Shown here in pieces: positions 28,827 through 43,274 of a stretch of 43,944 nucleotides of DNA (its first letter is position 1; each line of letters opens with the position of its first letter). The translations under genes and the position numbers were made by a program. The notes below the pieces were generated by a model that did not search any database, was not told the DNA's origin, and was given only the letters and a program-made list of their open reading frames with translations. The stretch comes from an uncultured Chitinophagales bacterium (GTDB lineage: Bacteria > Bacteroidota > Bacteroidia > Chitinophagales > JAHDHT01). The stretch spans positions 1 through 43,944 of the forward strand of contig CALHDG010000008.1 of assembly GCA_938023075.1 (NCBI GenBank), given 5' to 3'.

Positions 28827-28960
28827 TTTTTTTGAAACGAAACGATGTTGCCTGCAGTAACTCGAGGTCCCGCTTTCCGCTAAATCTTTTTATTCCGCAA
28901 GCTCCATAAAAAGGATACCGCTGCAATCGGGGTTAACTTGCCAACCTCGCTCCGCCACAA
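28827..28960 (+). repeat. Family A intergenic hairpin repeat, copy A4
   Basis: T-run, GAAACGAAACG, spacer, GTCCCGCTTTCCGCTAAAT, stem, ATACCGCTGCAATCGGGGTTA. The inner stem is ATCTTTTTAT (28884-28893) with ATAAAAAGGAT (28906-28916), with one bulge. Confidence 0.75.
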
Positions 28961-29027: not shown

Positions 29028-30581
29028 ATGGTACTCTTTGTATTGAATTTGGGTTGGATAATAGTTTTATTGATCATAGCTTTTTTAATTATGGTCGCTA
29101 TTTATGATGTGTTTATCCAAAAAACTCATACCATATTGCACAACTTTCCAATAGTTGGGCATTTACGCTATTGGATAGAAAGTGTAGGACCCGAATTTAG
29201 GCAATACATAGTTGCCAACAACCGCGAAGAATTGCCCTTTAACCGAAGCCAACGCAGCTGGATTTATGCCTCTTCAAAAAAAGAAAACAATTACGAAGGT
29301 TTTGGATCGGACAAAGATTTCAACAGCCCCAACTATATTATTATTAAACCCGCCATGTTCCCCTACGCGGTTAAGAAAAATCACATCAACTATAAAGAGA
29401 AAGATTTTTTACCCGCCGCTAAAGTAATTGGTGCGAAACGTCAGAAACCCTATCGCCCCAAATCGGTTATTAATGTTTCGGCGATGAGTTATGGCTCGCT
29501 TTCCAAAGCAGCCATTGAAGCCTTAAACAAAGGCTCGATAAAAGCGGGCAATTATCACAATACGGGCGAGGGTGGCTTATCTCCATATCACAGTTTTGGA
29601 GCGGATGTCTGTTTTCATTTCGGTACCGGTTATTTTGGGGTACGCAATAAACAAGATGGTTCTTTTAGCATGGATAAAATGAAAGAGTTGGTAGCCAAAA
29701 ATCCCTTCATCAAAATGATTGAAGTAAAGCTCTCGCAAGGCGCTAAGCCCGGTAAAGGAGGTGTGTTACCGGCTAAAAAAATTACCCAAGAGATTAGTGA
29801 AATACGAGGTGTTGAAATGAATAAAGATGTCTTGTCGCCAGCTAATCATTCGGCATTTCACAATATTGATACCTTAATTGATTTTGTAGAAAGCATAGCC
29901 GAAGCAACGGGTTTGCCGGTAGGCATAAAATCAGCTGTAGGTTGTATGTCGCAATGGAATGAGTTAGCCGAAAAGATGAAAGCCACCGGCAAAGGACCAG
30001 ATTTTATTACCATTGATGGAGGTGAAGGCGGAACCGGAGCCGCCCCGCCCGCTTTTGCCGATCACGTTTCGATGCCTTTTATTTACGCTTTCCCAAAAGT
30101 GTATAAAGTATTTCAAAAATACGATATGGCAAAACAAATTGTGTGGATTGCTTCTGGAAAATTAGGTTTACCCGACCGCGCCACTATGGCTTTTGCCATG
30201 GGTGCCGACATTATTAACGTAGCCCGCGAAGCGATGCTATCTATTGGCTGTATACAAGCCCAAATTTGTCATACCAATCATTGCCCTAGTGGAGTAGCTA
30301 CACAAAACAAGTGGTTACAAAAAGGGATTCATGTTCCGCAAAAATCCGATCGTTTTTACCATTATGTAAAATCCTTACGCAAAGAACTATTAGAAATTAC
30401 GCACGCCTGCGGTTACGAACATCCCTGCGAAATAGAAATGAAAGATGTGGAAATTGCGATGGGCGATAATAATAAAACCATCACGTTACAACAATCGTAT
30501 GGCTACAAAAAAGAGCCGGTAGATTTTGCAGGAATGCAAGAGATGGTGGATTGTTGTTTTTTGGGTGGAGCTAATGCTTAG
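29028..30581 (+). CDS. FMN-binding glutamate-synthase-family protein, membrane-anchored
   Basis: Related to the synthase domain of glutamate synthase (GltB) but without the amidotransferase half. A TTG at 29025 is directly before the ATG at 29028; the ATG is preferred. A hydrophobic N-terminal helix (about 1-28) is followed by the conserved FMN barrel: INVSAMSYGSLSKAAIEAL, HNTGEGGLSPYH, KPGKGGVLPAKK, ITIDGGEGGTGAAP. The cysteine motif C-x5-C-x4-C (408, 414, 419) corresponds to the [3Fe-4S] ligands. Members are common but their physiological reaction is not established; glutamate synthesis cannot be assumed. The last 4 bp overlap the convergent anti-sigma-like gene. Confidence 0.9.
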   Translation: MVLFVLNLGWIIVLLIIAFLIMVAIYDVFIQKTHTILHNFPIVGHLRYWIESVGPEFRQYIVANNREELPFNRSQRSWIYASSKKENNYEGFGSDKDFNSPNYIIIKPAMFPYAVKKNHINYKEKDFLPAAKVIGAKRQKPYRPKSVINVSAMSYGSLSKAAIEALNKGSIKAGNYHNTGEGGLSPYHSFGADVCFHFGTGYFGVRNKQDGSFSMDKMKELVAKNPFIKMIEVKLSQGAKPGKGGVLPAKKITQEISEIRGVEMNKDVLSPANHSAFHNIDTLIDFVESIAEATGLPVGIKSAVGCMSQWNELAEKMKATGKGPDFITIDGGEGGTGAAPPAFADHVSMPFIYAFPKVYKVFQKYDMAKQIVWIASGKLGLPDRATMAFAMGADIINVAREAMLSIGCIQAQICHTNHCPSGVATQNKWLQKGIHVPQKSDRFYHYVKSLRKELLEITHACGYEHPCEIEMKDVEIAMGDNNKTITLQQSYGYKKEPVDFAGMQEMVDCCFLGGANA

Positions 30582-31330
30582 CTTAGCTTTTTTAATAAGT
30601 CTTGCGCTTGATTATAAAAATCAGCACTTTCGGGTAATTTTTTGAGGTGTTGAATAGCTTCACCTTTGTCTTTCTTTTTCAAGTAGGTTAAGGCTGCATA
30701 CCAATTAGCATAGTTTTTAAAACTTTGGTTGCCGGTGCGTTCAATTACAAAATTAAAAGTTGCAATCGCTTCATCGTATTTGCCTACATTATATTCTGCA
30801 TTGCCTTTGGCTAAATGTAGTTTTAAATCGCCAGTTTGGTTGTTGATGAAAATGTTGAGGGCGGTTTCGTAATCTTCATTTTGGTAGGCTTTTATGCCTT
30901 CATCTATAATTGTTTTTGGGAGTAAGTTTGGATCTTTTTGATATAAGTAAGGACTATAATATTGATCAGCAACATCGGAAAGTTTGGGAGAGCTAATCAT
31001 AAAAAATAAAACAGCGGCGGCAGCGGCAAGTGTTGCAAGAGGAAATAATCTTCTTACTAGACTAGGTCGTTTGGGCATAGGTTTCTCAACCATTTCTTCA
31101 CCATCCATCACTTTACTCAAAATACCTTCAAACTCCAAGCGTTCACCTTCATCAATTTTATTTATAGCTTGATAATTTGCAGCTAAGGTAGTATCTACTT
31201 CTATATGAAAGTTGACTTCCTCGTTTAAAGCTTTGTCTTGCTGCAGCAATTTTTCAAAAGCGGTTAATTCATCTTCCGCTAATTCGCCGTTTATATATTT
31301 GCTTATCGTTATGTTATCTTTGTTATTCAT
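30578..31330 (-). CDS. Anti-sigma-factor-like membrane protein with TPR domain
   Basis: Residues 1-60 (YINGELAEDELTAFEKLLQQ) have the helical form of Bacteroidota anti-sigma N-termini, without a zinc motif. One membrane helix follows (about 95-113, alanine-rich). Residues about 125-250 are TPR-like (AYQNEDYETALNIF, NVGKYDEAIATFNF, KKDKGEAIQHLKKL) and would be outside the inner membrane. It lies 81 bp downstream of the ECF sigma gene, the standard order for a sigma/anti-sigma pair. By analogy it would hold the sigma factor at the membrane until an envelope signal reaches the TPR domain; this is inferred from family and context. Confidence 0.75.
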   Translation of the reverse strand: MNNKDNITISKYINGELAEDELTAFEKLLQQDKALNEEVNFHIEVDTTLAANYQAINKIDEGERLEFEGILSKVMDGEEMVEKPMPKRPSLVRRLFPLATLAAAAAVLFFMISSPKLSDVADQYYSPYLYQKDPNLLPKTIIDEGIKAYQNEDYETALNIFINNQTGDLKLHLAKGNAEYNVGKYDEAIATFNFVIERTGNQSFKNYANWYAALTYLKKKDKGEAIQHLKKLPESADFYNQAQDLLKKLS

Positions 31331-31411
31331 AGTTACAATTTTACACTTTTCCTTTGTATAACTATATACCCCGTGTTTTAAAAATCTTAGGGCGTCTTTT
31401 TTTAATTAACC

Positions 31412-32032
31412 TTATCCAAAATTAAGTGTGTTAAATTCAGGATGTGCTTCAATGAGCTTTTTCAATTTTATCCGGCAACCGTGCATCGCCACAAAAACGG
31501 CGTTTGTAGAGTGTCTATCCATAATTTTTCTAATTTCTTCTGCTTTTTTTCCTTCAAACTTCAAATTAAGCATTTTTTGACAGTCTTCGCTCAACTTTTT
31601 AAAACAATCGTCAAATACATGCAACCTTCTCTCTTTAATATTTTCAGTATCCATATTAAAATAGTCCTCTACCGCTTCTGTATATTTGGGCACATCATTA
31701 ATTTCTGTGGAGGTATCTATGTTTTTTCGCTCTTTATCTCTGTTTAAATAGTTCAGCCACTTAAACCGGTATACCGGATAAAAATATGCGCCAAAGCTTG
31801 AAGTAAGTTCAACATTATTACTTTTTACTTTTTCCCACAAGGAAGTTAAAGTCTCCTGAAAAAGATTCTTTGCCTGATCTTTGGTGCCACTGTTTTGAAG
31901 TACAAATTGTACAACATCGCCATACCATTGTTGATAAATTTCTTTTATTAAAACATTATCATTATGCTTTAAGGCTTCAATATATTTTTGATCAGGATGT
32001 AAGGCCATACTACTTGGTTTTAATTTTGACAT
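31412..32032 (-). CDS. ECF-type RNA polymerase sigma factor
   Basis: 206 residues. The sigma-2 region (about 30-100) shows YQQWYGDVVQFVLQNSGTKD and LFQETLTSLWEKV. The sigma-4 region (about 140-195) shows CFKKLSEDCQKMLNLKFEGK and AVFVAMHGCRIKLKKLIEAH. It is divergent in type from housekeeping sigma factors and pairs with the anti-sigma-like gene downstream. The targets are unknown; the neighbouring secreted-protein genes (32340-42620) are the obvious candidates. Upstream, 32033-32339 has a palindrome at 32217 and nothing else I recognise. Confidence 0.87.
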   Translation of the reverse strand: MSKLKPSSMALHPDQKYIEALKHNDNVLIKEIYQQWYGDVVQFVLQNSGTKDQAKNLFQETLTSLWEKVKSNNVELTSSFGAYFYPVYRFKWLNYLNRDKERKNIDTSTEINDVPKYTEAVEDYFNMDTENIKERRLHVFDDCFKKLSEDCQKMLNLKFEGKKAEEIRKIMDRHSTNAVFVAMHGCRIKLKKLIEAHPEFNTLNFG

Positions 32033-32216
32033 GTTAAATTTAGGAAAATTTTTTATATAATTTGAATTTGTTCATTTTATTTTGTGCTATATAGGTTGCT
32101 ATCTAGAGCATTGTACAAATATGATGCTTTTTGTATTAGCTAAATAAATTGAATGACTAATGGTTTAAATTATATGATGAATTGCCATTTTAAACGGATA
32201 AGTTATATTCACTGCA

Positions 32217-32251
32217 AAAGGTGACACCTTTTTTTTAAAGATGTCACCTTT
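32217..32251. repeat. Double palindrome, left of the EGF lipoprotein gene
   Basis: Arms AAAGGTGACACCTTT and AAAGATGTCACCTTT (14 of 15 complementary) around five T. Each arm is itself a near-palindrome. It is 89 bp beyond the 3' end of 32340-33623 and could act as its terminator; an almost identical copy is at 33887. Confidence 0.75.
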
Positions 32252-32339
32252 GTTGATCCAACCAATTGAGCTTTGAAATTCTTTCGATTGAATTTAACCA
32301 TAAAATATTATGATTTACTTTATGGGAGAAGCTATACTA

Positions 32340-33623
32340 TTATTCGTTTACTAATTCATAAGTTATGGGGTTAAAATAAATGTCTAAGTTTGCATCATAA
32401 TCTCGGTTTTGATGAAGGTCATCACCGCTTGTATCGCCAATTATTTCAAAACGGTTTACCAAGTTACCAGCAAAGCTGCAATTCTCTTCAATACATTGGG
32501 TAGCACTTAAAACATCTAATGCATGGTCATTATCCATGTAATGGCACTTTGAAAATGTTTCGCTAACAATTCTATGAAATACCTTTCCGGGCGGAGCAAA
32601 CCTTAATGTGGTTACTTCTTCCTTTTTTCCTTCAGAACCATCTCCTCTCGTTTCTTTTGCCCGAAAAAATTTTCGAAGTTTCAACTCTCTTTTGTTTTTA
32701 ATAAAAATTTCTGCTTCAGCCCAAACTTCAGGACCGTTACCGCCAAACTCTGCATCTCCTCGCACTCGCTCGCTTGGATAAAACCGAATAACTGGAGGAG
32801 GTGTGAATGTATGGACAGTTGACTTTAACTCACTACAGTCGTGTCCTGTATATCCTTCTGGGCAATCACATTCCCCATTCACACATCTTCCACCATTTCT
32901 GCAAGATACCCCGACACAAGCATCAAAATTTTGGCAACGATCTCCACTATAGCCTGAAGGACAATCACATTTACCATCGATACAAACACCACCATTTAAA
33001 CAATTTGGAGGTTGAGTAATACATTTGTCTTCTTTTTCACATAACGTTCCACTGAAACCATTTGGACAGTTGCAAGCTCCATTTATACAAGTACCTCCAT
33101 TTTGGCAATTCACATTATCACATGGATTTTCTACTTTAGTTTCGCAACTGGGTCCGGTAAATCCATCTGGACAGATGCAAGCACCATTAAGGCAAGTTCC
33201 ATCATTTTCGCAAACAATGCCTTCCGTTTTGCAAGGGTCTTCGTTTTGACATCTTTCTCCACTAAAACCATAAAGGCATTCGCAAGTGCCATCTACGCAG
33301 CTGCCACCATTTTGGCAATCAACAGCATCGCAAGGCATAACTATTTTTGTTGCGCAGTCAGCTCCGGTAAAGTCATCTGGGCATTTACAAGTGCCATCAA
33401 CACAAGTACCTCCATTTAAACAATTTGGATTTTGAGTAATGCATTTGTCTTCAATTGTACACTTTGTACCTGTAAAACCTTTCGGGCATTCGCAAGTACC
33501 TTCCATACAAATACCGGAATTTTCGCAGACTACATCTTTACAAGCATCCGTACAAGATTGCATAATTAGTAATAAAGTGCTAACGACTGTTAGCCATAAT
33601 AGTTTTGATTTAATTACTTTCAT
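32340..33623 (-). CDS. Lipoprotein with seven EGF-like modules
   Basis: 427 residues. A lipoprotein signal ends at Cys24 (LLLIMQSC). Residues about 28-268 are seven EGF-like modules of 28-30 residues, each with six Cys and the CxNGGxCxxGxCxCPxGFxGxxC pattern (for example CQNGGTCINGACNCPNGFSG). The C-terminal 150 residues (FTPPPVIRFYPSERVRGDAE, LRFAPPGKVFHRIVSETFSK) are unlike anything I know. EGF arrays outside animals usually mediate protein contacts at the cell surface. It is divergent from the LRR-subtilase gene and flanked on both sides by GGTGACACC palindromes. Confidence 0.85.
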   Translation of the reverse strand: MKVIKSKLLWLTVVSTLLLIMQSCTDACKDVVCENSGICMEGTCECPKGFTGTKCTIEDKCITQNPNCLNGGTCVDGTCKCPDDFTGADCATKIVMPCDAVDCQNGGSCVDGTCECLYGFSGERCQNEDPCKTEGIVCENDGTCLNGACICPDGFTGPSCETKVENPCDNVNCQNGGTCINGACNCPNGFSGTLCEKEDKCITQPPNCLNGGVCIDGKCDCPSGYSGDRCQNFDACVGVSCRNGGRCVNGECDCPEGYTGHDCSELKSTVHTFTPPPVIRFYPSERVRGDAEFGGNGPEVWAEAEIFIKNKRELKLRKFFRAKETRGDGSEGKKEEVTTLRFAPPGKVFHRIVSETFSKCHYMDNDHALDVLSATQCIEENCSFAGNLVNRFEIIGDTSGDDLHQNRDYDANLDIYFNPITYELVNE

Positions 33624-34284
33624 TTTTTTGGATTTTAAAAGTTTTAAGAAAATTAAGTTTTTGATTCATTTTTCATTTTTTTAAAAGATTATATAATTGT
33701 TGTTACAAAAGGATATACCAAACAGTTGAAAATACTTAGCTGATTTTTATAAAAATTTTAAAATATTCAGTAATTACTAACTACAATTCAATTCTGCCTT
33801 TATATCCTTCTATACCAACATTGATATTTTTATTAGTCGGATGGATGATATTTTTTTGATTAGTTTTGAAAAAGCACTTCGCAAATGAGGTGACACCTTT
33901 TCAAAAAGGTGTCATCTCTGTAGTACAATCTTTTCCGTCATTCAGAATAGCAACGAAAAGAAACGAATAGTTTACTCAAAATCTGCTTATATAAAAAAGC
34001 AGGTTGGTCGCTCCATCGACTTTTAAAATAATTGGGAGATACTGCACCAATAATTCCGCTACACTACATCATTTCGCAGCGTGACTTGGGTATTTATCAG
34101 TCAGTCGTTTTCATCATTGTAAGAAGCTACAAAACAAAAAGCAACAGCCCACTCAAAAATTATTGTACAAAAAAAACCAACCCACTACTAAGGTTTTTAA
34201 AGTTTGTGATATATACAAACGTATGACAAAACAACAACCCTAAAACAATTATTATTTTTAGGTAATTAAAACAGTAAAAGAATT
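33624..34284. other. Divergent regulatory region, EGF lipoprotein / LRR-subtilase
   Basis: 661 bp with no convincing gene. It carries the second double palindrome (33887-33918) and a short inverted repeat GTTTGT/ACAAAC (34202-34207 and 34215-34220) 65 bp before the LRR-subtilase start. Both promoters must lie here. Confidence 0.6.
33887..33918. repeat. Double palindrome, right of the EGF lipoprotein gene
   Basis: Arms GAGGTGACACCTTTT and AAAAGGTGTCATCTC (14 of 15 complementary). Same core as the copy at 32217. No gene ends here on either strand, so a terminator role does not explain it. Confidence 0.75.
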
Positions 34285-37200
34285 ATGAAAGGAACAAGAA
34301 CAACTATTTGGCTATGCACCTTATTACTAATGTTATCATTAACCCACCTAACTGCCAATGCCCAATGCCATTTGGACGATTGGATTGCTTTAAAAGCCTT
34401 GTACGAAAGTACTGATGGCGATAATTGGACTGACAATACCAACTGGCAAGAGGTTACAGGTAATCAACCCACAGGCAATTGTAATCTGGGCAATTTGTTT
34501 GGAGTTCAATTAGATGAAAACGGCAGAGTTAGTTGCCTTGATTTAGACGGAGTTGATGATTGTTTAATTAATTACGGAAATGATGGTAATAATTTGAATG
34601 GAAGTATTCCACCCGAATTGGGTCGTTTAAGCGGTTTGACTCACTTGCTTTTGCAAAAAAATGAACTCAGTGGCAGTATTCCACCAGAAATGGGCGAATT
34701 AAGTAATTTGACTAACTTGTATTTGTCAGACAATCAACTCACCGGCAGTATTCCTCCAGAATTGGGCGAATTAAGCAATTTGGCTGCCTTGAGGTTGAAC
34801 TTCAATAAACTTAGCGGTAGTATTCCCCCTGAATTGGGTAAGTTAACCAATTTGGAATCTTTGTATTTGTCTGGCAATGAACTCAGTGGCAGTATTCCTC
34901 CCGAATTGGGCGAATTAATCAATTTGAAAGGTATGTGGTTAAATCAAAATAAACTTAGCGGTAGTATTCCCCCCGCGTTGGGTAAATTAAACAAATTGAT
35001 TTGGTTAATGTTGTACATGAATGAACTAAGTGGTAGTATTCCCCCTGAGTTAGGCGATTTGAGTAATTTACATGAGTTGGGCTTATTCAGAAATCAACTT
35101 AGCGGCAGCATTCCTCCCGAGTTGAGTACATTAAGCAAATTAACTAAATTGACTTTATACGCCAATCAACTCAATGGCAGTATTCCCCCCGAATTGGGTA
35201 ACTTAAACAATTTAGATTGGTTGGAAATTAATCATAACAACTTAAGCGGCTGTTATGATGCCAATTTAGCAAAACTTTGCACACAACTAAGCAACCCTGA
35301 TTTTAAGGGAAACGCAGACATTAGCGATGGTAACAACTTCGATGCTACATGGGAAGATTTTTGTGCTAAAGGTGTGGATGCTTGTATACCACCTGTTACT
35401 AATTGCCATATAGATGATTGGACAGCTTTAAAAGCATTATACGAAAGTACCGATGGCATTAATTGGACAAACAATACCAACTGGCAAGAGGTTACCGGTA
35501 ACCAACCAACCAACAATTGTAATTTGGAAACTTTATACGGAGTTCGTTTAGATGAAAACGGCAGAGTTAGTTGCCTTGATTTTGATGGGGTTGATGATTG
35601 TATAATTGATTACGGAGATGGTGGTAATAATTTGAATGGAAGTATTCCACCAGAAGTGGGTCGCTTAAGCAATTTAACTCGCTTGCTTTTGCATAACAAC
35701 AACCTCAGTGGTAATATTCCATTCGAATTGGGGAATTTAAGTAATTTGATTTTGTTGAATTTGTCAAGAAATAAACTAAACGGTAGCATACCTGTTGAAT
35801 TGGAAAAATTAAGCAATTTGACTTTGTTACATATGTTCACCAATCAGTTAAGTGACAACATCCCACCCGAATTGGGGAATTTGAGTAATTTGACTTCACT
35901 GTGGTTAGAAGGAAATCAACTCAGTGGCAATATTCCTCCAACATTGAGCCGTCTTAACAAATTGGAATATTTGGTTTTGCATAATAACCAACTGATTGGA
36001 GACATTCCCTACGAATTGGGTGAATTAAGCAATTTATTAGCATTGGGTTTATCAGGTAATCAACTCAGCGGCAGTATACCACCCGAGTTGAGCAAATTGA
36101 GCAAATTAATTTCATTATTATTGGCATTCAATGAACTCAACGGTACTATTCCGGTAGAGTTGGCTGATTTAACTGAATTAAAAAATTTGGAGTTACACGT
36201 CAATCAACTGAGCGGTAATATTCCTATCGAATTAACCAATTTAAGTAATTTGGAAAAATTGTCTTTGTCCATCAATCAACTTAGTGGTAGTATTCCTCCA
36301 GCATTGAGCAAGTTGAGCAATTTACAATATTTAGGCTTAAGAGAAAATGAATTTAGCGGCAGTATACCCCCCGAATTAGGCAATTTAAGTAATTTGCAAT
36401 ATTTAGGTTTGAGCAAAAACAAAATAATAGGTAACATGCCTACAGAATTGAGTAACTTAATCAATTTAGATTGGCTGGAAATTAATAATAATAACTTAAG
36501 CGGCTGTTATGATGCCAATTTAACGATACTTTGTACACAACTAAACAACACTAATTTTAAGGGAAATGCAGACATTAGCGATGGTAACAACTTCGATGCT
36601 ACTTGGGAAGATTTTTGTACCACGGATGCTGGTGTATGTATACCACCTATTACCAATTGCCATATAGATGATTGGACAGCTTTAAAAGCCTTATACGAAA
36701 GTACTAATGGCATTAATTGGACAAACAATACCAACTGGCAAGAGGTTACCGGCAACCAACCAACCAACAATTGTAATTTGGAAACTTTATACGGAGTTCG
36801 TTTGGATGAAAACGGCAGAGTTAGTTGCCTTGATTTTGATGGGGTTGATGATTGTATAATTGATTACGGAAGTGGTGGTAATAATTTGAATGGAAGTATT
36901 CCACCCGAAGTGGGGCGTTTAAATAATTTAACTCGCTTGCTTTTGCAAAATAACAACCTCAGTGGCAGTATTCCACCCGAATTGGGGAATTTAAGTAATT
37001 TGATTTGGTTGATTTTGGCTATAAATGAACTCAACGGCAGTATCCCAGCCGAATTAGGAAATTTAAACAATCTGACTTGGTTACATATATTCACAAATCA
37101 GCTAAGTGGCAGGATACCTCCCGAACTGGGAAATTTAAGTAATTTGTCTTCACTGTGGTTGGCAGACAATCAACTCATTGGAGAAATTCCTACCGAATTG

Positions 37201-39750
37201 GGTGAATTAAGGAATTTATTAGCATTGGGCTTTTCAGGTAATCAATTCAGCGGCAATATTCCCACCGAATTGGGCAACTTAAGCAAGTTGGAGTTCCTTA
37301 GTGCTAATCATAACAACTTAAGCGGTTGTTATGATGCCGATTTAGCAAAACTTTGCACACAACTAAACAACCCTGATTTTGAAGGAAATGAAGACATTAG
37401 CGATGGTAACAACTTCGATGCTACATGGGAAGATTTTTGTGCCAAGGGTGTAGATGCTTGTATCAAATATTGCCACATTGACGACTGGACTGCTTTAAAG
37501 GCAATATACCTTAGCACAAATAATGCTGCTAATTGGACAAATAGGGACAACTGGGATATTTTTAAAAATGAAAACCCTCCGCAAGATTGCAATTTAAGCG
37601 GTTTGCACGGTGTAAGTTTTGATGATGAGGGAAGAGTAGATAGTATTAATTTAAGTAGAAACAATTTGAGTGGCAACTTATCTGATGAACTGGGCGAAGC
37701 GAATTTTAGTGTAATAGATATTAGCCATAATTATTTTTCATTTCAAGAAGTTGCAAATGCTAAACCTACTAACAAGTTCAAATACTCGCCACAATACTTT
37801 GGTGAAATTGAGTGGTACAACCAAACTGAAAGAGATACGGTAACCATTTCAACATCTTACCCATATCTTAATCAATTAAGTGAACCAACTTATAAATGGA
37901 AAAAAGATGGCATTCTTATAAACGAAATTGACACTATATTTTCTATAGATGATGCCATGCAGAATGATGTAGGCGCATATCGGCTTCACATAACTGAAAG
38001 TAATGCGGATATTGAGTTAGAGCTGATTTCTGAACCCATCCATTTATTAGTTAAAGGTTTTGACCCAATAGGAGCGCCTGTTAAGCCAAATGAATTTTTG
38101 TACGATTTTGATAATCAAGAAGCGCTTGAGGCTTTTAAAGAAGAATATGAGCAAATAACCTTTGTAGATTCTTGCCATTGTGATAGCCGACTTTTATATT
38201 TAATTAGGCACGAATCAGATAGTATTGCTGCCACCGTTATGTTAGATATTCTGCAAAAAACTGAAACCATAGTGGACACCACTTTTATTGAAGATTCTAA
38301 TCATATTGTAGAAAGTGGTGTTATTACAGATAGAGGACCAGTTTTCAAATACCGATATCCTCCCTTACCAAATATACAAAACTCCGTTTCTATTTATTTG
38401 TTAGATACTGGTTTTGATTTTGGAATGACGATTAACACAGCACATTTTGGTACGCCGAATAATCAGCTTTGTCCAGCTATTTCACAACAAGATTTTGTAA
38501 CGAAAATTGACGACATTAATGGTCACGGTTCTAATGGTTTCCGTTTTATTACTGATGGTTTAGATGCATCTTCCCAAATTAAAGTAACGCCACTTAGAGT
38601 TTTTGAAGATAGACAAACCAGCCTCTTTAAGTTAATTTGTGCATTATACTATTCAATTGACCAAGGAGCTGATATTATAAATTTGAGTGCAGGCTATAGT
38701 GGCTTACGTTCAAAAATATTAGAAGATGCCTTAAGTTATGCCCAGGAAAAAGGTATTTTTATTGTTACTGCAGCGGGTAATGATGGGGTAGATATTGACC
38801 TTAAACCACATTACCCCGCAACTTTTTCAGGTGGATATAAAAACGTAATTTCAATAGGTTCTATCAACCATAATAATAGGCTTACCGAATTTACAAATTA
38901 TGGCGACACTGCCGTTACCTTAGTAGCGCAAGGTAAAAATATGATTGGCTTTGGTATGGATGATAAAGATATTATTGGGAATGGCACTTCCTATTCTACC
39001 TACTTTGTTGCCAGAATGTTGGCTTTAGTTATTGCAGAAGATAACACTTTAAGTAGTGAAGAAGTTTGGAGCAAATTTGACACGAAATATTTAATTGACA
39101 ACCCAGAAACAATTGGGATGTGCAGCACAGGAAAAAGATTAGATATAGAAGTAATTGAGATAAGTGACAGCACATGTTTTACACCACAAACAATTGAAAT
39201 CAATTCAATTGAAGCTAACAAAGCTTCTATTGCGTGGGATGATTTTAGTTCAAGCATATCCTACACACTTAAAATTAGAGAAAAGGATAGTTTATATTGG
39301 GAATTAGAAATGGAAGAAATTAATACCAACAAATATGAGCTGACAAATTTGAAAGATTGTACCACTTATGAAGTAATTGTACAATCTAATTGTATGCATA
39401 ATACTAATAGTGGATACTCTCAAATTCAAAGCTTTACTACAAAAAATTGTACACATTCACCGCCACCGTCGCCACCACTTTGTCCAACACCTGTATACAT
39501 AGCAGCCAATAAGGTACAAAGTAAGTCAGCAGAAATTGAATGGCATAAATATAGTAAATGCGGGCAAACGGGCTACAATTTTGAATATCGAAAAGTAGGC
39601 GGAGAATGGATTTGTAAAGAAACTATAGGTGTTGTTTATCAACTTAATAATTTAGAAAAATGTACAACATACCAAGCTCGGGTAAATATGATTTGTGCTG
39701 ATGAAAAAAGTGGCTATTCGCCTACTATTGAATTTACAACATTAGATTAA
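34285..39750 (+). CDS. Giant secreted LRR - Ig-like - subtilase - Fn3 protein
   Basis: 1821 residues with a signal peptide (1-27, ...HLTANAQ). Three blocks (28-373, 374-791, 792-1062) each open with a CHxDDWxALKALYEST cap, run through plant-type leucine-rich repeats (LGNLSNLxxLxLxxNxLSGSIPPE) and close with a Cys-containing cap (LSGCYDANL...WEDFC). A fourth, short block starts at 1063. An Ig-like domain follows (about 1165-1260). The peptidase S8 domain has Asp1374 (LLDTGFD), His1414 (NGHGSNG), Asn1499 (AAGNDG) and Ser1569 (GTSYST), so the triad and oxyanion Asn are intact. Two Fn3 domains (about 1631-1727, 1733-1821) end it; no standard sorting domain is visible. A surface protease guided by the LRRs is the plain reading, and the targets are unknown. 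Confidence 0.92.
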   Translation: MKGTRTTIWLCTLLLMLSLTHLTANAQCHLDDWIALKALYESTDGDNWTDNTNWQEVTGNQPTGNCNLGNLFGVQLDENGRVSCLDLDGVDDCLINYGNDGNNLNGSIPPELGRLSGLTHLLLQKNELSGSIPPEMGELSNLTNLYLSDNQLTGSIPPELGELSNLAALRLNFNKLSGSIPPELGKLTNLESLYLSGNELSGSIPPELGELINLKGMWLNQNKLSGSIPPALGKLNKLIWLMLYMNELSGSIPPELGDLSNLHELGLFRNQLSGSIPPELSTLSKLTKLTLYANQLNGSIPPELGNLNNLDWLEINHNNLSGCYDANLAKLCTQLSNPDFKGNADISDGNNFDATWEDFCAKGVDACIPPVTNCHIDDWTALKALYESTDGINWTNNTNWQEVTGNQPTNNCNLETLYGVRLDENGRVSCLDFDGVDDCIIDYGDGGNNLNGSIPPEVGRLSNLTRLLLHNNNLSGNIPFELGNLSNLILLNLSRNKLNGSIPVELEKLSNLTLLHMFTNQLSDNIPPELGNLSNLTSLWLEGNQLSGNIPPTLSRLNKLEYLVLHNNQLIGDIPYELGELSNLLALGLSGNQLSGSIPPELSKLSKLISLLLAFNELNGTIPVELADLTELKNLELHVNQLSGNIPIELTNLSNLEKLSLSINQLSGSIPPALSKLSNLQYLGLRENEFSGSIPPELGNLSNLQYLGLSKNKIIGNMPTELSNLINLDWLEINNNNLSGCYDANLTILCTQLNNTNFKGNADISDGNNFDATWEDFCTTDAGVCIPPITNCHIDDWTALKALYESTNGINWTNNTNWQEVTGNQPTNNCNLETLYGVRLDENGRVSCLDFDGVDDCIIDYGSGGNNLNGSIPPEVGRLNNLTRLLLQNNNLSGSIPPELGNLSNLIWLILAINELNGSIPAELGNLNNLTWLHIFTNQLSGRIPPELGNLSNLSSLWLADNQLIGEIPTELGELRNLLALGFSGNQFSGNIPTELGNLSKLEFLSANHNNLSGCYDADLAKLCTQLNNPDFEGNEDISDGNNFDATWEDFCAKGVDACIKYCHIDDWTALKAIYLSTNNAANWTNRDNWDIFKNENPPQDCNLSGLHGVSFDDEGRVDSINLSRNNLSGNLSDELGEANFSVIDISHNYFSFQEVANAKPTNKFKYSPQYFGEIEWYNQTERDTVTISTSYPYLNQLSEPTYKWKKDGILINEIDTIFSIDDAMQNDVGAYRLHITESNADIELELISEPIHLLVKGFDPIGAPVKPNEFLYDFDNQEALEAFKEEYEQITFVDSCHCDSRLLYLIRHESDSIAATVMLDILQKTETIVDTTFIEDSNHIVESGVITDRGPVFKYRYPPLPNIQNSVSIYLLDTGFDFGMTINTAHFGTPNNQLCPAISQQDFVTKIDDINGHGSNGFRFITDGLDASSQIKVTPLRVFEDRQTSLFKLICALYYSIDQGADIINLSAGYSGLRSKILEDALSYAQEKGIFIVTAAGNDGVDIDLKPHYPATFSGGYKNVISIGSINHNNRLTEFTNYGDTAVTLVAQGKNMIGFGMDDKDIIGNGTSYSTYFVARMLALVIAEDNTLSSEEVWSKFDTKYLIDNPETIGMCSTGKRLDIEVIEISDSTCFTPQTIEINSIEANKASIAWDDFSSSISYTLKIREKDSLYWELEMEEINTNKYELTNLKDCTTYEVIVQSNCMHNTNSGYSQIQSFTTKNCTHSPPPSPPLCPTPVYIAANKVQSKSAEIEWHKYSKCGQTGYNFEYRKVGGEWICKETIGVVYQLNNLEKCTTYQARVNMICADEKSGYSPTIEFTTLD
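34366..37470 (+). repeat. Three tandem LRR blocks within the subtilase gene
   Basis: Blocks begin at 34366, 35404 and 36658 (lengths 1038, 1254 and 813 bp). The first 250 bp of blocks 2 and 3 are almost identical at DNA level, differing at only a handful of positions. This indicates recent duplication; the blocks differ mainly in the number of LRR units. Confidence 0.85.
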
Positions 39751-39786
39751 ATAAACTCTGATAAGTATTGTATCGAATTTTATTTA

Positions 39787-39831
39787 AACTACATAGACAT
39801 ATAGTGACTTAGACTATATGTCTATGTGGTT
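39787..39831 (+). terminator. Long hairpin between LRR-subtilase and CHAT genes
   Basis: A perfect 15-bp stem ACATAGACATATAGT (39791-39805) / ACTATATGTCTATGT (39813-39827), extendable to 19 bp with one G-T pair. A short T-rich stretch follows. It probably ends or weakens read-through, so the two genes may have separate promoters. Confidence 0.6.
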
Positions 39832-39922
39832 CATTTTCAATTCTATTTTATGAAAGATGTAGCATTTTTTAATAAAAACATTCAGTTTCTTTATATTAAA
39901 GTTGATAAAAATTTGTATCTAT

Positions 39923-39942
39923 AACGTTTTTAGATAAACGTT
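39923..39942. promoter_or_regulatory. Inverted repeat next to the CHAT gene start
   Basis: AACGTTT / AAACGTT around six bases, ending 5 bp before the ATG. It could be an operator or an mRNA hairpin near the start; no binding protein is known. Confidence 0.35.
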
Positions 39943-39947
39943 TTACA

Positions 39948-42620
39948 ATGAGAAAATTTTCTTTCGTAATCTGCGCTATTTTTTTATTGGCAAATTTTAA
40001 TACAAATGCACAATTAATTCAATTTAGTTATGGTGATTGCCAAAGAGACGACCTCAATTGTAGCACTATTTCAAGAATTGACTCTTTGGTTCAATCAGTT
40101 GGAAATACTTATTCAGGTGCTGAATTAGCTTGCATTTATCATCATTTAGGCAATTGTTATATAAGAAAGCAAAAAAAAGTAGATGCCATCAATTGTTATA
40201 ATAAATCAAAACAACTTAGAGAAAAAATTGATGATGGATTGTTGTGGAAATCTTACTTTTCAATCGGTCAGGCATATCAAAGAATTGGAGACCATAAAAA
40301 AACAATTGATAATTTTGAGAAAGCTTTATCTGCAGATGGTATCAAGCCACCTAAAGAGTTAGCATATTTAATTAAGTTTTTGGGTGGCAAATATTCAGAA
40401 ACGGGTGACTATGAAAAGGCAATTAAATTATGTGAGACATCTATTGAAAGAATGAACATACCAGACTCAAATAGAGCAGATTTATTAGATGTGCTTAGTA
40501 ACATTTTAGTTGATACCAAAAATGTAAAATATTTAGAAAAAGCAATCGAAACCGGAAACGAATCCATCAAAGTATACACGTCAATAGGGCAATTACATAA
40601 AACAGCCCTGCCTTTAAATAATATTGGAAGGGCTTTTTTTGAATTGAAAAAATATGATTCGGCATTATTTAATTTTGAAAAAGCCTTAAAGTTAATTGAT
40701 GCTAATGCTAAAAGCCATATTGTAAGTATTAATAATAATATTGGTGCTGTTTATTTTGAACAAAAAAAATATGAATTATCTATTAAATATTTATTTAAGG
40801 CATTAAAGATGAAAGATGAAATTTACGATAAAGAAAAATATCGTTCAGAATATCATTACCAATTTTACAACATAGCTGAAAACTTAATGAAATTAAAAAA
40901 GTATGCTGAAGCCTTGGATTACATTCAACAATCAATAATTTGTTTAGCGAATAATTTTATAGATGAGAATATTTTTACTAATCCTAATGAAACTGACTTA
41001 GCATTAGATATGGTTGAGTCATTAAATTTAAAAGCATTAATTGCCCATCAATATTATAAAGAAAATAAGCATAAAGATTATTTAAACCTTGCTGAACAGA
41101 CTTTTAAAAAAAGCGCAAAATTTTATATGCAGCTATTGCAAAATATTGATTTTAAAGAATCTCGTTTAATGCAAGCACAAAATTTATTACCATCTTTAGA
41201 AGATGCCCTTTCCGTTTGTTATGATTTACAGAAAGAGAATAACTCTTTTAAAGAAACCGCCTTTCAATTTATAGAATTAAACAAAGCCACGGTTCTTTTG
41301 CAATCTATTTATGAAGCAAAGGCTTTAAAAAATACAGCAATTCCCGACTCATTATATAGTCTTCAAAAAGCATTAAAAGATTCAATTTCACTTTACAAAA
41401 AAGAAATAGATACAATCAATAATGAAAGGGGTCAAACATATCTAAAAAGAAAAAAATTATTATTCGATATGGAAATAGCTTATCAGCGCTTGATTGATGA
41501 ACTTGAATCTAATTATCCAAAATATTACGATTTAAAGTATAAACAGGCTTCAATAAAAGTTTCAGTAATTCAAAACCAACTAAAATATGGTAAGGCTCTT
41601 TTAGAATACTTCATAGGAGACAACACCATTTACACAATGACCATACAAAAAGAACAAGTAGATTTTCATCAAATTAAAAAACCATTAACTTGGCAAGGTG
41701 ATATAAAAAAATTAGGTGAAGCCATTATTTACAATCATAACAATTATATACCTGATGCATATGCTTTATACCAACTAATTTTAGAAAAACCATTAAGCTG
41801 TTTAAATGAGGAAATTAAACATGTACAAATTATACCGGATGCCGAATTGAACACTATACCATTTGCTGCTTTGCTAACAAATAAGCACGACCTCCCTAAA
41901 AATTTAGCTAAACTGGATTACACTAAGTTGAGTTTTCTTGCTAATCAATTTTATATCAGTTATGCGTATACAGGCAAATTACTGTTAGAAGCTCAAAAAA
42001 GAAAAGGGTCTATTGATTCCATTAATAATTATGCATCCTTCTTAGCGAAAGATGATATTGTAACAAAATACTGCGCCCAGTATATTGATTATGTACCAAA
42101 AGGCATGAGTGGAAAAATATATAAGAACGAAGCATGCAATCCGATTAATTTTAAAGATTACGCTAATAAATATAGCATCGTGAATTTAACCATGCATGGA
42201 TGCGGCAAGTTGGGGTCATTGTCTTTTACTGATGAAGATTTATTTGATACGGATATTTATAATTTGGACTTAAGCAACAATCAACTAATTTACCTCACCG
42301 CCTGCGAAACTAATGTAGGAACCATCCAAAAAGGCGAAGGCGTTATGAGCCTATCCAGAGCTTTCACTTACGCAGGCTGCCCATCTCTTGTAAGCACTCT
42401 ATGGAGTGTTCATCCAGAATCAACCTGTGTAATTACTAGCGAATTTTTTAATCAAATAAAATTAGGTAAAACCAAAGATGTTGCCCTTTGGGAAGCTCAA
42501 AAATGGTATATAAACAATTATGTAAGGAATCCTGATAAATTGGAAAAAGACTTAACCGCCCATCCCTACTACTGGGCAGGCATTATACCAATCGGCAACA
42601 TGACACCCATACAATTTTAA
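39948..42620 (+). CDS. Secreted TPR-CHAT (caspase-like) protein
   Basis: 890 residues. A signal peptide (1-21, ...FNTNAQ) is followed by TPR repeats over about 60-350 (YHHLGNCYIRKQKKVDAINC, FFELKKYDSALFNFEKAL, YFEQKKYELSIKYLFKAL), a helical linker, and a C-terminal CHAT domain (about 600-890). The dyad of the caspase/separase clan is present: His750 in TMHGCG and Cys786 in LTACETNVG. The domain ends with HPYYWAGIIPIGN, a CHAT hallmark. CHAT proteins are proteases activated by a sensor, and here the TPRs are the likely sensor. Export makes it unlike the cytoplasmic CHAT of craspase-type systems. It lies 197 bp after the LRR-subtilase gene in the same direction. Confidence 0.92.
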   Translation: MRKFSFVICAIFLLANFNTNAQLIQFSYGDCQRDDLNCSTISRIDSLVQSVGNTYSGAELACIYHHLGNCYIRKQKKVDAINCYNKSKQLREKIDDGLLWKSYFSIGQAYQRIGDHKKTIDNFEKALSADGIKPPKELAYLIKFLGGKYSETGDYEKAIKLCETSIERMNIPDSNRADLLDVLSNILVDTKNVKYLEKAIETGNESIKVYTSIGQLHKTALPLNNIGRAFFELKKYDSALFNFEKALKLIDANAKSHIVSINNNIGAVYFEQKKYELSIKYLFKALKMKDEIYDKEKYRSEYHYQFYNIAENLMKLKKYAEALDYIQQSIICLANNFIDENIFTNPNETDLALDMVESLNLKALIAHQYYKENKHKDYLNLAEQTFKKSAKFYMQLLQNIDFKESRLMQAQNLLPSLEDALSVCYDLQKENNSFKETAFQFIELNKATVLLQSIYEAKALKNTAIPDSLYSLQKALKDSISLYKKEIDTINNERGQTYLKRKKLLFDMEIAYQRLIDELESNYPKYYDLKYKQASIKVSVIQNQLKYGKALLEYFIGDNTIYTMTIQKEQVDFHQIKKPLTWQGDIKKLGEAIIYNHNNYIPDAYALYQLILEKPLSCLNEEIKHVQIIPDAELNTIPFAALLTNKHDLPKNLAKLDYTKLSFLANQFYISYAYTGKLLLEAQKRKGSIDSINNYASFLAKDDIVTKYCAQYIDYVPKGMSGKIYKNEACNPINFKDYANKYSIVNLTMHGCGKLGSLSFTDEDLFDTDIYNLDLSNNQLIYLTACETNVGTIQKGEGVMSLSRAFTYAGCPSLVSTLWSVHPESTCVITSEFFNQIKLGKTKDVALWEAQKWYINNYVRNPDKLEKDLTAHPYYWAGIIPIGNMTPIQF

Positions 42621-42641
42621 AAAATTAGCTATCTTTACGAT

Positions 42642-43274
42642 ATGACAGCCGTACAGCAGCATTCCACAAAAAAACAATACAGCCTGGAAAATTATTACCA
42701 ATTGCAAGACGAAATTAGCACCAAAGGCTTAATCGTAGACGGACAACACATTAGCCGGATAGAATACAACAATGGAGAAATCCGGTTTATGGCTGGTGGT
42801 ACCATACCTCACTCTATAATTACTACCAATCTAATGGGGAATATCTTTCCACTATTAGAAACCACAAAATGCAGACCATTTGGTGACTCCGCCAACTTGG
42901 CGATAGACCAAATTAAAACGATTCTACATTCAGACTTATGTATTGTGTGTGATGGGATTCAAAAAGGCGAATTCGACAGAAATGGAGTTACCAATGCCAA
43001 AGTAATTGTTGAAGTTTTATCAAAATCAACTGCCTTATACGATAGAACGGGTAAATTTAGAAAGTACAAACAAATCCCTGAATTTGAAGAATATATTTTG
43101 ATTAATCAAGATAAAGCATTAATCGAGACTTTCGTGAAACACGACAATAACTTGTGGCATTTTAAAGAATGCGAAGGCTTAGAGCAACATTTCACCATCG
43201 AGACCTTAAAGTTAAACATACCGATGGAATCGATTTATAAAGATGTTGATTTTGAAGTGGTTGAAGTTGAGTAA
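42642..43274 (+). CDS. Uma2-family (DUF820) putative nuclease
   Basis: 210 residues, PD-(D/E)XK-like fold of the Uma2 family. Visible motifs are LHSDLCIVCD, KVIVEVLSKST (Glu of the active site in EVLS) and KFRKYKQIPEFEEYILINQD. Family members are very abundant in cyanobacteria and Bacteroidota, but their role is not established. It starts 21 bp after the CHAT stop, so it could be read with it, although a TATCTTTA box just upstream could also be a separate weak promoter. It may simply be a passenger. Confidence 0.87.
   Translation: MTAVQQHSTKKQYSLENYYQLQDEISTKGLIVDGQHISRIEYNNGEIRFMAGGTIPHSIITTNLMGNIFPLLETTKCRPFGDSANLAIDQIKTILHSDLCIVCDGIQKGEFDRNGVTNAKVIVEVLSKSTALYDRTGKFRKYKQIPEFEEYILINQDKALIETFVKHDNNLWHFKECEGLEQHFTIETLKLNIPMESIYKDVDFEVVEVE

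Follow-up and report, generated by a model that had tools for sequence, protein, structure and literature searches.

The DNA considered here (the window) is a 43,944-nucleotide stretch of contig CALHDG010000008.1 from an uncultured Chitinophagales bacterium, whose last 13 kb comprise six genes, three on the minus strand and three on the plus strand. Among them, an extracytoplasmic function (ECF) sigma factor and a membrane anti-sigma-like protein with tetratricopeptide repeats (TPR) stand beside an exported TPR-CHAT caspase-like protease. These three form a recurrent core, which is real and conserved in Bacteroidota; an S8 protease (subtilase), here fused to leucine-rich repeats (LRR), is one recurrent companion, and the companion met most often besides it is a PKD-type protein. 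CHAT proteases are known mainly as intracellular effectors of defence. We propose, giving the idea an even chance, that the locus is a local and self-contained switch in the cell envelope, leading from a protease to a sigma factor. If so, a conserved exported CHAT coupled to a sigma/anti-sigma pair would give a large phylum a general route from surface events to transcription, and a directly testable one, for the module is present in cultured genera (Aquimarina, Chitinophaga, Dyadobacter and Pedobacter).

A first-pass annotation had placed side by side the sigma factor, the membrane TPR anti-sigma, a lipoprotein with epidermal growth factor (EGF) repeats, the LRR-subtilase and the TPR-CHAT protein. 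Pfam, NCBIfam and structure modelling bear out this set, every gene named lying where it had been placed.

Recurrence of the core

A scan with the sigma factor finds at least 470 relatives, of which the best 80 loci (L040-L119), all picked by sigma similarity, were kept. An anti-sigma match is present in 74 of them, CHAT in 54 and S8 in 13, always together with CHAT. CHAT occurs in 40 of the 51 loci having at least 7 kb on each side and in 13 of the 27 shorter ones; L106 and L119, where no plus-strand sigma open reading frame was called, fall outside this locus scoring (78 scored). In 71 of the 78, the gene that directly follows sigma on its strand is the anti-sigma relative. In ten loci, from Dyadobacter, Chitinophagaceae, Lunatimonas and Neolewinella, the order along a single strand is sigma, anti-sigma, S8, CHAT. 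Along the same line, among relatives of the same order CHAT is found near 7 of 16 anti-sigma loci, including all five of genome G010, and near none of the other 9.

The link was also approached from the CHAT side. CHAT is present in 24 of 60 other genomes of the phylum (25 of 61 with the window's own genome), and the 34 matches yield 33 stretches, 13 of which have a family sigma (E below 1e-12 required; some stretches end at contig ends) and 12 of these a TPR anti-sigma as well, both within about 8 kb; eight of these 12 are adjacent sigma/anti-sigma pairs and four have CHAT in between. Seen from this side, the link is strong and not universal. Since CHAT-less sigma loci and sigma-less CHAT stretches both exist, neither gene strictly requires the other.

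Neighbourhood in related genomes had been set beforehand as the point on which the first-pass annotation could fail; it did not fail there, for in many Bacteroidota the sigma, anti-sigma and CHAT genes lie together, with S8 alongside in 13 of the 80 loci. The two-protease system which it described survives in so far as both proteases are present and S8 recurs, but the partners are unequal, CHAT belonging to the core and S8 being one of two companions that do not co-occur: among the 54 CHAT loci, S8 is present in 13, a PKD-type protein in 26, neither in 15 and both in none. A different lipoprotein family is found in 25 of the 80 loci, mostly adjoining sigma (this label and the PKD-type one were both assigned with jackhmmer at E 1e-10, starting in each case from one L061 protein). 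In Aquimarina, Chitinophaga, Mucilaginibacter, Pedobacter and Niastella, the divergent side consists of the lipoprotein, a PKD-DUF7619-DUF7849 protein and CHAT.

The window's own draft genome (6.12 Mb, 288 contigs) holds 16 CHAT, 16 S8, 15 anti-sigma and 13 sigma matches (two of the latter in one gene). Sigma, anti-sigma, S8 and CHAT occur together on C8 (the window's contig), C144, C186 and C249; since the full set is found on three contigs besides the window's own, the arrangement in the window is not a chance neighbourhood. Partial sets are seen on C193 (LRR-S8 and CHAT, the contig data stopping inside the LRR part), on C247 and C283 (a sigma/anti-sigma pair with S8 proteins) and on C56 and C211 (more distant pairs with CHAT). 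Five of the 16 CHAT matches have S8 within 6 kb, against 0.58 expected at random, and five or more arose in 0.0001 of 20,000 runs of random placement (7 kb between centres). Both CHAT and S8 lie within 12 kb of 4 of the 11 family sigmas and of none of 28 other Sigma70_r2 genes (Fisher p=0.004), and either of them near 6 of 11 versus 3 of 28 (Fisher p=0.008); in this comparison C163, C85 and C162 count as negative though their contigs break within about 1.1 kb on the divergent side, C237 and C180 are placed among the other sigmas, and the CHAT-bearing C56 and C211 pairs, unmatched by the sigma search, are outside the family set.

Two further loci of this genome deserve mention. On C273 (L029:6925-9552), an 875-residue frame with several anti-sigma-like N-domains and, by eye, a receiver-like stretch adjoins a sigma with a duplicated N-terminal half. 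On C237 (L032), a distant sigma and a possible anti-sigma stand amid proteins that by eye resemble type VI or contractile-injection components.

The place of S8 in the system can be questioned. The adjacency of LRR-S8 might be incidental in the window, the system consisting of sigma, anti-sigma and CHAT only: S8 is absent from 41 of the 54 CHAT loci, LRR-S8 fusions occur in the window's genome and in none of L040-L119, and the Lunatimonas S8 proteins next to CHAT (L057:14354-15748, L059:13766-15160) have no recognisable Asp and Ser motifs and are possible pseudo-proteases. We nevertheless hold this improbable. S8 is on the same strand as CHAT in 13 of 13 S8 loci and its immediate neighbour in 12, at times with an overlap of a few bases (in the remaining locus one reading frame intervenes), which suggests one transcript. 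The two are paired in Dyadobacter, Chitinophagaceae, Lunatimonas, Neolewinella and other Saprospiraceae, in one stretch (L241) of the sample that started from CHAT, and on C186, C144, C249 and C193 of the window's genome.

Proteins of the locus

The features of the region, with nucleotide positions in the window, are the following.

30578-31330, minus strand: putative TPR anti-sigma (from Pfam, NCBIfam, structure model and position), with a helical N-domain at residues 3-75, a transmembrane helix at residues 96-112 (nt 30995-31045) and, on the far side, TPR at residues 141-249 (nt 30584-30910)
31412-32032, minus strand: ECF-type sigma factor (Sigma70_r2, TIGR02937, SigW match in the PDB)
32340-33623, minus strand: exported EGF-repeat lipoprotein, a local accessory whose C-terminal part has no detected relatives
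34285-39750, plus strand: exported LRR-subtilase of 1821 residues (LRR, Peptidase_S8, fn3), with three capped LRR blocks at about nt 34360-37734, S8 at residues 1324-1619 (nt 38254-39141) and an Fn3 tail
39787-39831, plus strand: AT-rich hairpin of 19 pairs between LRR-S8 and CHAT
39948-42620, plus strand: exported TPR-CHAT caspase-like protease of 890 residues (signal peptide, TPR superhelix, CHAT domain at nt 41757-42599), with the predicted dyad at His750 (nt 42195) and Cys786 (nt 42303)
42642-43274, plus strand: Uma2-family nuclease-like gene, 21 bp past CHAT, of uncertain association with the locus

The sigma protein is an ECF sigma factor, short and with regions 2 and 4. TIGR02937 (sigma70-ECF, NCBIfam) matches it at 54.6 bits (cut-off 42.9) over model positions 4-163 of 165, Pfam Sigma70_r2 matches at 27.4 bits (cut-off 24) with no separate Pfam match to region 4, and the best PDB profile match is SigW (3e-13). 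Translation probably starts at Met 9 (nt 32008).

Its neighbour has, in the structure model (mean pLDDT 86.5), a four-helix N-domain, one transmembrane helix (96-112) and TPR helices at 141-249. Placed next to sigma, with a helical N-domain, a membrane helix and a far-side domain, it has the modelled architecture of a membrane anti-sigma factor and is predicted to bind and inhibit sigma. Pfam matches are to TPR families (TPR_16 best, at 30.9 bits, just below its cut-off of 32.7), TPR proteins fill the fold-search matches displayed, and NCBIfam NF052375 matches residues 10-112 at 25.1 bits (cut-off 100).

As regards the CHAT protein, Pfam PF12770 matches at 122.4 bits against a cut-off of 24. 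It has the caspase-like fold, by the structure comparison given below, and the His-Cys dyad, and is predicted to be active; the earlier statement that both proteases keep their catalytic residues holds (CHAT His750 and Cys786; S8 Asp1374, His1414 and Ser1569). In a 72-row alignment, the catalytic His is found in 66 of 66 ungapped rows and the Cys in 69 of 70. An Indibacter CHAT (L043:12546-15323) has Gly in the Cys column, possibly an inactive form or a misalignment.

By simple hydropathy rules, used here for signal peptides and membrane helices alike, the CHAT of the window has a signal-peptide-like N-terminus, and 48 of the 54 CHATs of L040-L119 have an N-terminal signal-like or transmembrane stretch. 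Just past the CHAT domain, 48 of 53 long relatives (the L113 CHAT, under 400 residues, is excluded) have a membrane-helix-like stretch, usually with basic residues after it. The predicted topology of the typical relative is thus that of a periplasmic protease tethered in the inner membrane, where the TPR domain of the anti-sigma would be its neighbour. The CHATs of the window, C186, C191 and C211 stop at the CHAT domain, with no C-terminal membrane helix, and would be soluble.

Export of CHAT bears on whether the protease acts as an executioner. In a scheme of regulated cell death, CHAT activated by contact or damage would kill multicellular or colonial cells, with sigma and anti-sigma only setting its dose. 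The genome has 16 CHAT matches, and the available part of PMC8195603 describes the EACC2 conflict systems of bacteria with multicellular habit. A signal peptide on CHAT would, however, put cytosolic targets out of reach, and no STAND or known pore domain occurs in nine locus-area proteins scanned with Pfam (other neighbours were not scanned). We give this scheme little probability.

The structure model of the window CHAT (pLDDT 87.9, pTM 0.89) is closest to the TPR-CHAT protein Csx29 of Craspase (Foldseek 2.5e-16 to 8eey; against 7y83, Z 33.2 over 419 residues at 3.5 A), separases and gingipains being lower in the list. It also matches the anti-sigma DdvA (8rot, Foldseek 2.5e-10, Z 22.7 over 568 residues at 11.8 A; 8rw5 likewise matched), and for a profile of the CHAT domain alone the best PDB sequence match is DdvA 832-978 (1.4e-7), with the His and Cys positions conserved.

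The subtilase domain of the LRR-S8 protein (Pfam 90.2 bits, cut-off 21.8) has the complete Asp-His-Ser triad in its sequence, and the N-terminus looks by eye like a signal peptide. Pfam finds no match to the Ig-like part (E<=0.01) and no Por_Secre_tail, the type IX sorting domain; by eye, no sorting domain is seen in the other frames preceding CHAT. A 72-nt unit, repeated 23 times in register, makes up the LRR array; the DNA of the cap regions is 85% alike within one family, and the values for a second family are 89% and 70%. Across 19 units compared, framework positions are near-invariant and exposed positions highly variable, a pattern expected of a putative binding surface. Positive selection was considered and dropped, exposed pN being about 0.7 and pS 0.37-0.87 (saturated); variability only is supported. 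The LRR partner of S8 noted in the first-pass annotation is present in the window's genome and absent as a fusion from L040-L119. A separate 963-residue LRR protein, with no S8 match, adjoins CHAT in a Bacteroidia metagenome-assembled genome (L119:2998-5889).

The EGF lipoprotein, counted earlier as part of the set, had to be given up as a conserved element, its C-terminal part finding no relative either in L040-L119 or in the loci of its own genome. Both the EGF and the LRR parts look local.

The Uma2 gene lay within the span of the first-pass annotation and went unmentioned there. Uma2 has 22 matches in the genome, another Uma2 gene precedes a sigma/anti-sigma pair on C180, and PADLOC, run on six window proteins, matched it as PDC-S03. 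A known defence system was considered and rejected, the other PADLOC matches being weak (CARF1 at 1e-4 for the anti-sigma, Cmr5 at 0.007 for sigma, a TPR model for the L085 CHAT) and taken as chance or TPR. Rfam places a Flavo-1 small RNA (RF01705, 60.2 bits) at 28862-28938 on the minus strand and no RNA family inside the locus itself.

Upstream motifs and repeats

In 11 Aquimarina loci, the region upstream of sigma is conserved around TTTTTTGTTACCCT. More generally, GTTACC is found in 32 of 78 sigma upstreams versus 2.0% of the 615 control upstreams taken from these loci, at a median of 53 bp from the ATG and oriented with sigma in 32 cases versus one reversed; it looks like an ECF-type -35 box and like sigma self-activation. 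TGTTAC, the motif of the relatives, is absent before the window's sigma, and its frequency in the window is not above shuffles. The sigma motif that the first-pass annotation expected to be shared upstream of sigma, EGF, LRR-S8 and CHAT did not materialise, alignment yielding A+T richness and no common box.

The 12-base form TTTTGTTACCCC was searched in eight whole genomes and has 14 matches in 6 of them (reversed control 18). Four (L151, L154, L156 and L158) are family sigma loci, and the other ten have no common function, although about 1.3 kb from the match in L163 there is another family-like sigma. The genome of L085 has four matches, none at its sigma locus, the upstream of which differs in the last base. 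The matches indicate that the motif marks sigma upstreams; the eight-genome search gives no support to a wider regulon.

A REP-like palindrome around AAAGGTGTCAYC is found at 32217-32251 (before sigma) and 33888-33917 (between EGF and S8). It was dropped as a regulon signal because it is a genome-wide repeat, with 54 matches versus 0 in the reversed control; copies also flank a Uma2 match on C88. Another element, CYGRCTAMAYAGG, lies in intergenic regions of C85, C186, C247 and C249 and has six matches in the genome (reversed control 1), four of which are circular, being the defining loci; the others are on C23, before a short and by-eye exported frame, and on C264, inside a gene. As a regulatory element it is a weak lead.

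Within the region, Sigma70-like sites are at shuffle level (58 vs 58.6) and terminator-like sites near it (11 vs a shuffle mean of 8.3). The hairpin at 39787-39831 could possibly uncouple transcription of LRR-S8 from that of CHAT.

A putative switch and its known counterparts

The proposed switch would work as follows. At rest, the TPR anti-sigma would hold sigma by its cytosolic N-domain at the inner membrane, its TPR domain facing the periplasm. TPR-CHAT would be exported to the same compartment, where in most relatives a C-terminal helix would tether it to the membrane. A signal of contact or damage would reach CHAT via exported companion proteins (in the window, the LRR-subtilase and perhaps also the EGF lipoprotein), and activated CHAT would cut the periplasmic part of the anti-sigma, or alter its hold. 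Sigma would be freed, as RpoE is by the action of DegS on RseA in E. coli, and would transcribe its own operon and perhaps neighbouring exported genes. The analysis shows which genes are present, that they recur, that the catalytic residues are kept, what topology and fold are predicted, and that relatives have a promoter motif at the sigma operon. That CHAT cleaves the anti-sigma is what we infer, and so are the nature of the signal and the part of S8 and LRR as sensor or activator. Given its recurrence across the phylum and its likeness to a protease circuit linked to CRISPR, such a module may convert outside contact into gene expression.

Several observations weigh against this proposal. 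CHAT is missing from 11 of the 51 well-flanked sigma loci and from 9 of the 16 order-relative loci, and a family sigma from 20 of the 33 CHAT stretches (at E below 1e-12, with some cut by contig ends). GTTACC is missing upstream of the window's sigma, and its 12-base form is not enriched over the reversed control in the eight genomes (14 vs 18). The window CHAT has no membrane tail, the anti-sigma is assigned by position and architecture with its NF052375 match below cut-off, the DdvA structural match has a large root-mean-square deviation and draws partly on TPR helices, and contact between CHAT and anti-sigma belongs to what we infer.

The main rival, possible though clearly less probable than the switch, puts the proteases at the output. 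CHAT and S8 would be weapons or digestive enzymes switched on by sigma and acting on outside or periplasmic targets, while the anti-sigma would sense the envelope by its own TPR and be cut by housekeeping proteases. The companions are indeed exported adhesin-like or hydrolase-like proteins, three of them, elsewhere in the window's genome, with type IX sorting tails; exposed LRR positions vary as in binding surfaces; and where CHAT was scored (53 loci), it lies upstream of sigma on the opposite strand in 29, a layout that sigma targets often show. Yet the C-terminal membrane helix of most CHATs, usually with a basic tail, is odd for a secreted weapon, and GTTACC faces sigma rather than the divergent operon (1 of 78 reversed). 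Moreover, Csx29 targets a sigma inhibitor, according to the part of the Craspase report available, and DdvA has TPR-CHAT inside the anti-sigma itself. The surface recognition and proteolytic response under envelope control read from the window at first thus keep the sigma/anti-sigma/CHAT linkage, but the proteases need not be the response, because the evidence of fold and fusion lets CHAT act upstream, on the anti-sigma.

Returning to the switch, its nearest counterpart is the sigma arm of Craspase (type III-E), in which, according to the accessible portion of PMC10028731, the TPR-CHAT Csx29 cleaves Csx30 and thereby relieves inhibition of sigma, and sigma motifs at the locus point to autoregulation. 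There, as here, a TPR-CHAT, a sigma inhibitor and an ECF-like sigma (CASP-sigma) are encoded together, and Craspase is the best fold match of the window CHAT. Here, however, the inhibitor is not Csx30 but a TPR protein of the membrane, and both CHAT and its binding or protease companions are exported. No Cas7-11/gRAMP is found in the nine Pfam-scanned or six PADLOC-scanned proteins, a search that extended neither to CRISPR arrays nor to the remainder of the genome.

A second counterpart is DdvS/DdvA of Myxococcus xanthus, an ECF sigma with a transmembrane anti-sigma bearing a large TPR-CHAT-like domain (8rot, 8rw5). The sources, as far as available, give DdvS as the ECF sigma partner of DdvA (PMC4374960) and as controlling an antiphage island (review, PMC12288465). 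DdvA both matches TPR-CHAT and is an anti-sigma, so that one chain unites what are separate genes here, as a fusion would; here there are two genes, each product with a membrane anchor in most relatives, plus exported partners. No open reading frame in L040-L119 matched both hidden Markov models, and the window genes are separate; in L168, a 1000-residue CHAT weakly matches the anti-sigma model (4e-6), perhaps via TPR.

The membrane anti-sigma and the periplasmic first cut proposed here recall RseA/DegS, which the same portion of PMC10028731 describes, the difference being that the proposed protease is a locus-encoded caspase-like CHAT and not DegS. In EACC2, as presented in the available text of PMC8195603, a caspase-domain protein is encoded near an ECF sigma and a TPR gene, a set described as a conflict system of bacteria with multicellular habit; the locus differs from these in that CHAT is exported and the nine Pfam-scanned proteins have no DUF1822 match (EACC2 itself was not targeted). 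Titles and abstract openings, a coverage largely short of subscription journals and preprints, gave no publication on an exported CHAT with sigma/anti-sigma.

To sum up, the locus would work like the Craspase sigma arm and DdvA and is, by the present tests, a member of neither, because no Cas7-11 is found among the scanned proteins and the chains are separate. A broader picture, which taken as a whole we put somewhat short of even, is that of a dedicated envelope caspase widely used in Bacteroidota as the first-cut protease for an anti-sigma, made of an ECF sigma, a small TPR anti-sigma, a membrane-tethered periplasmic TPR-CHAT and exchangeable recognition proteins (LRR-subtilase, PKD or lipoprotein). 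In it, the window's genome would have multiplied the module and, with variable LRR arrays, opened several parallel recognition channels, DdvA would be the fused form and the Craspase arm the cytosolic version; if true, both would fall within one wider theme of protease, anti-sigma and sigma.

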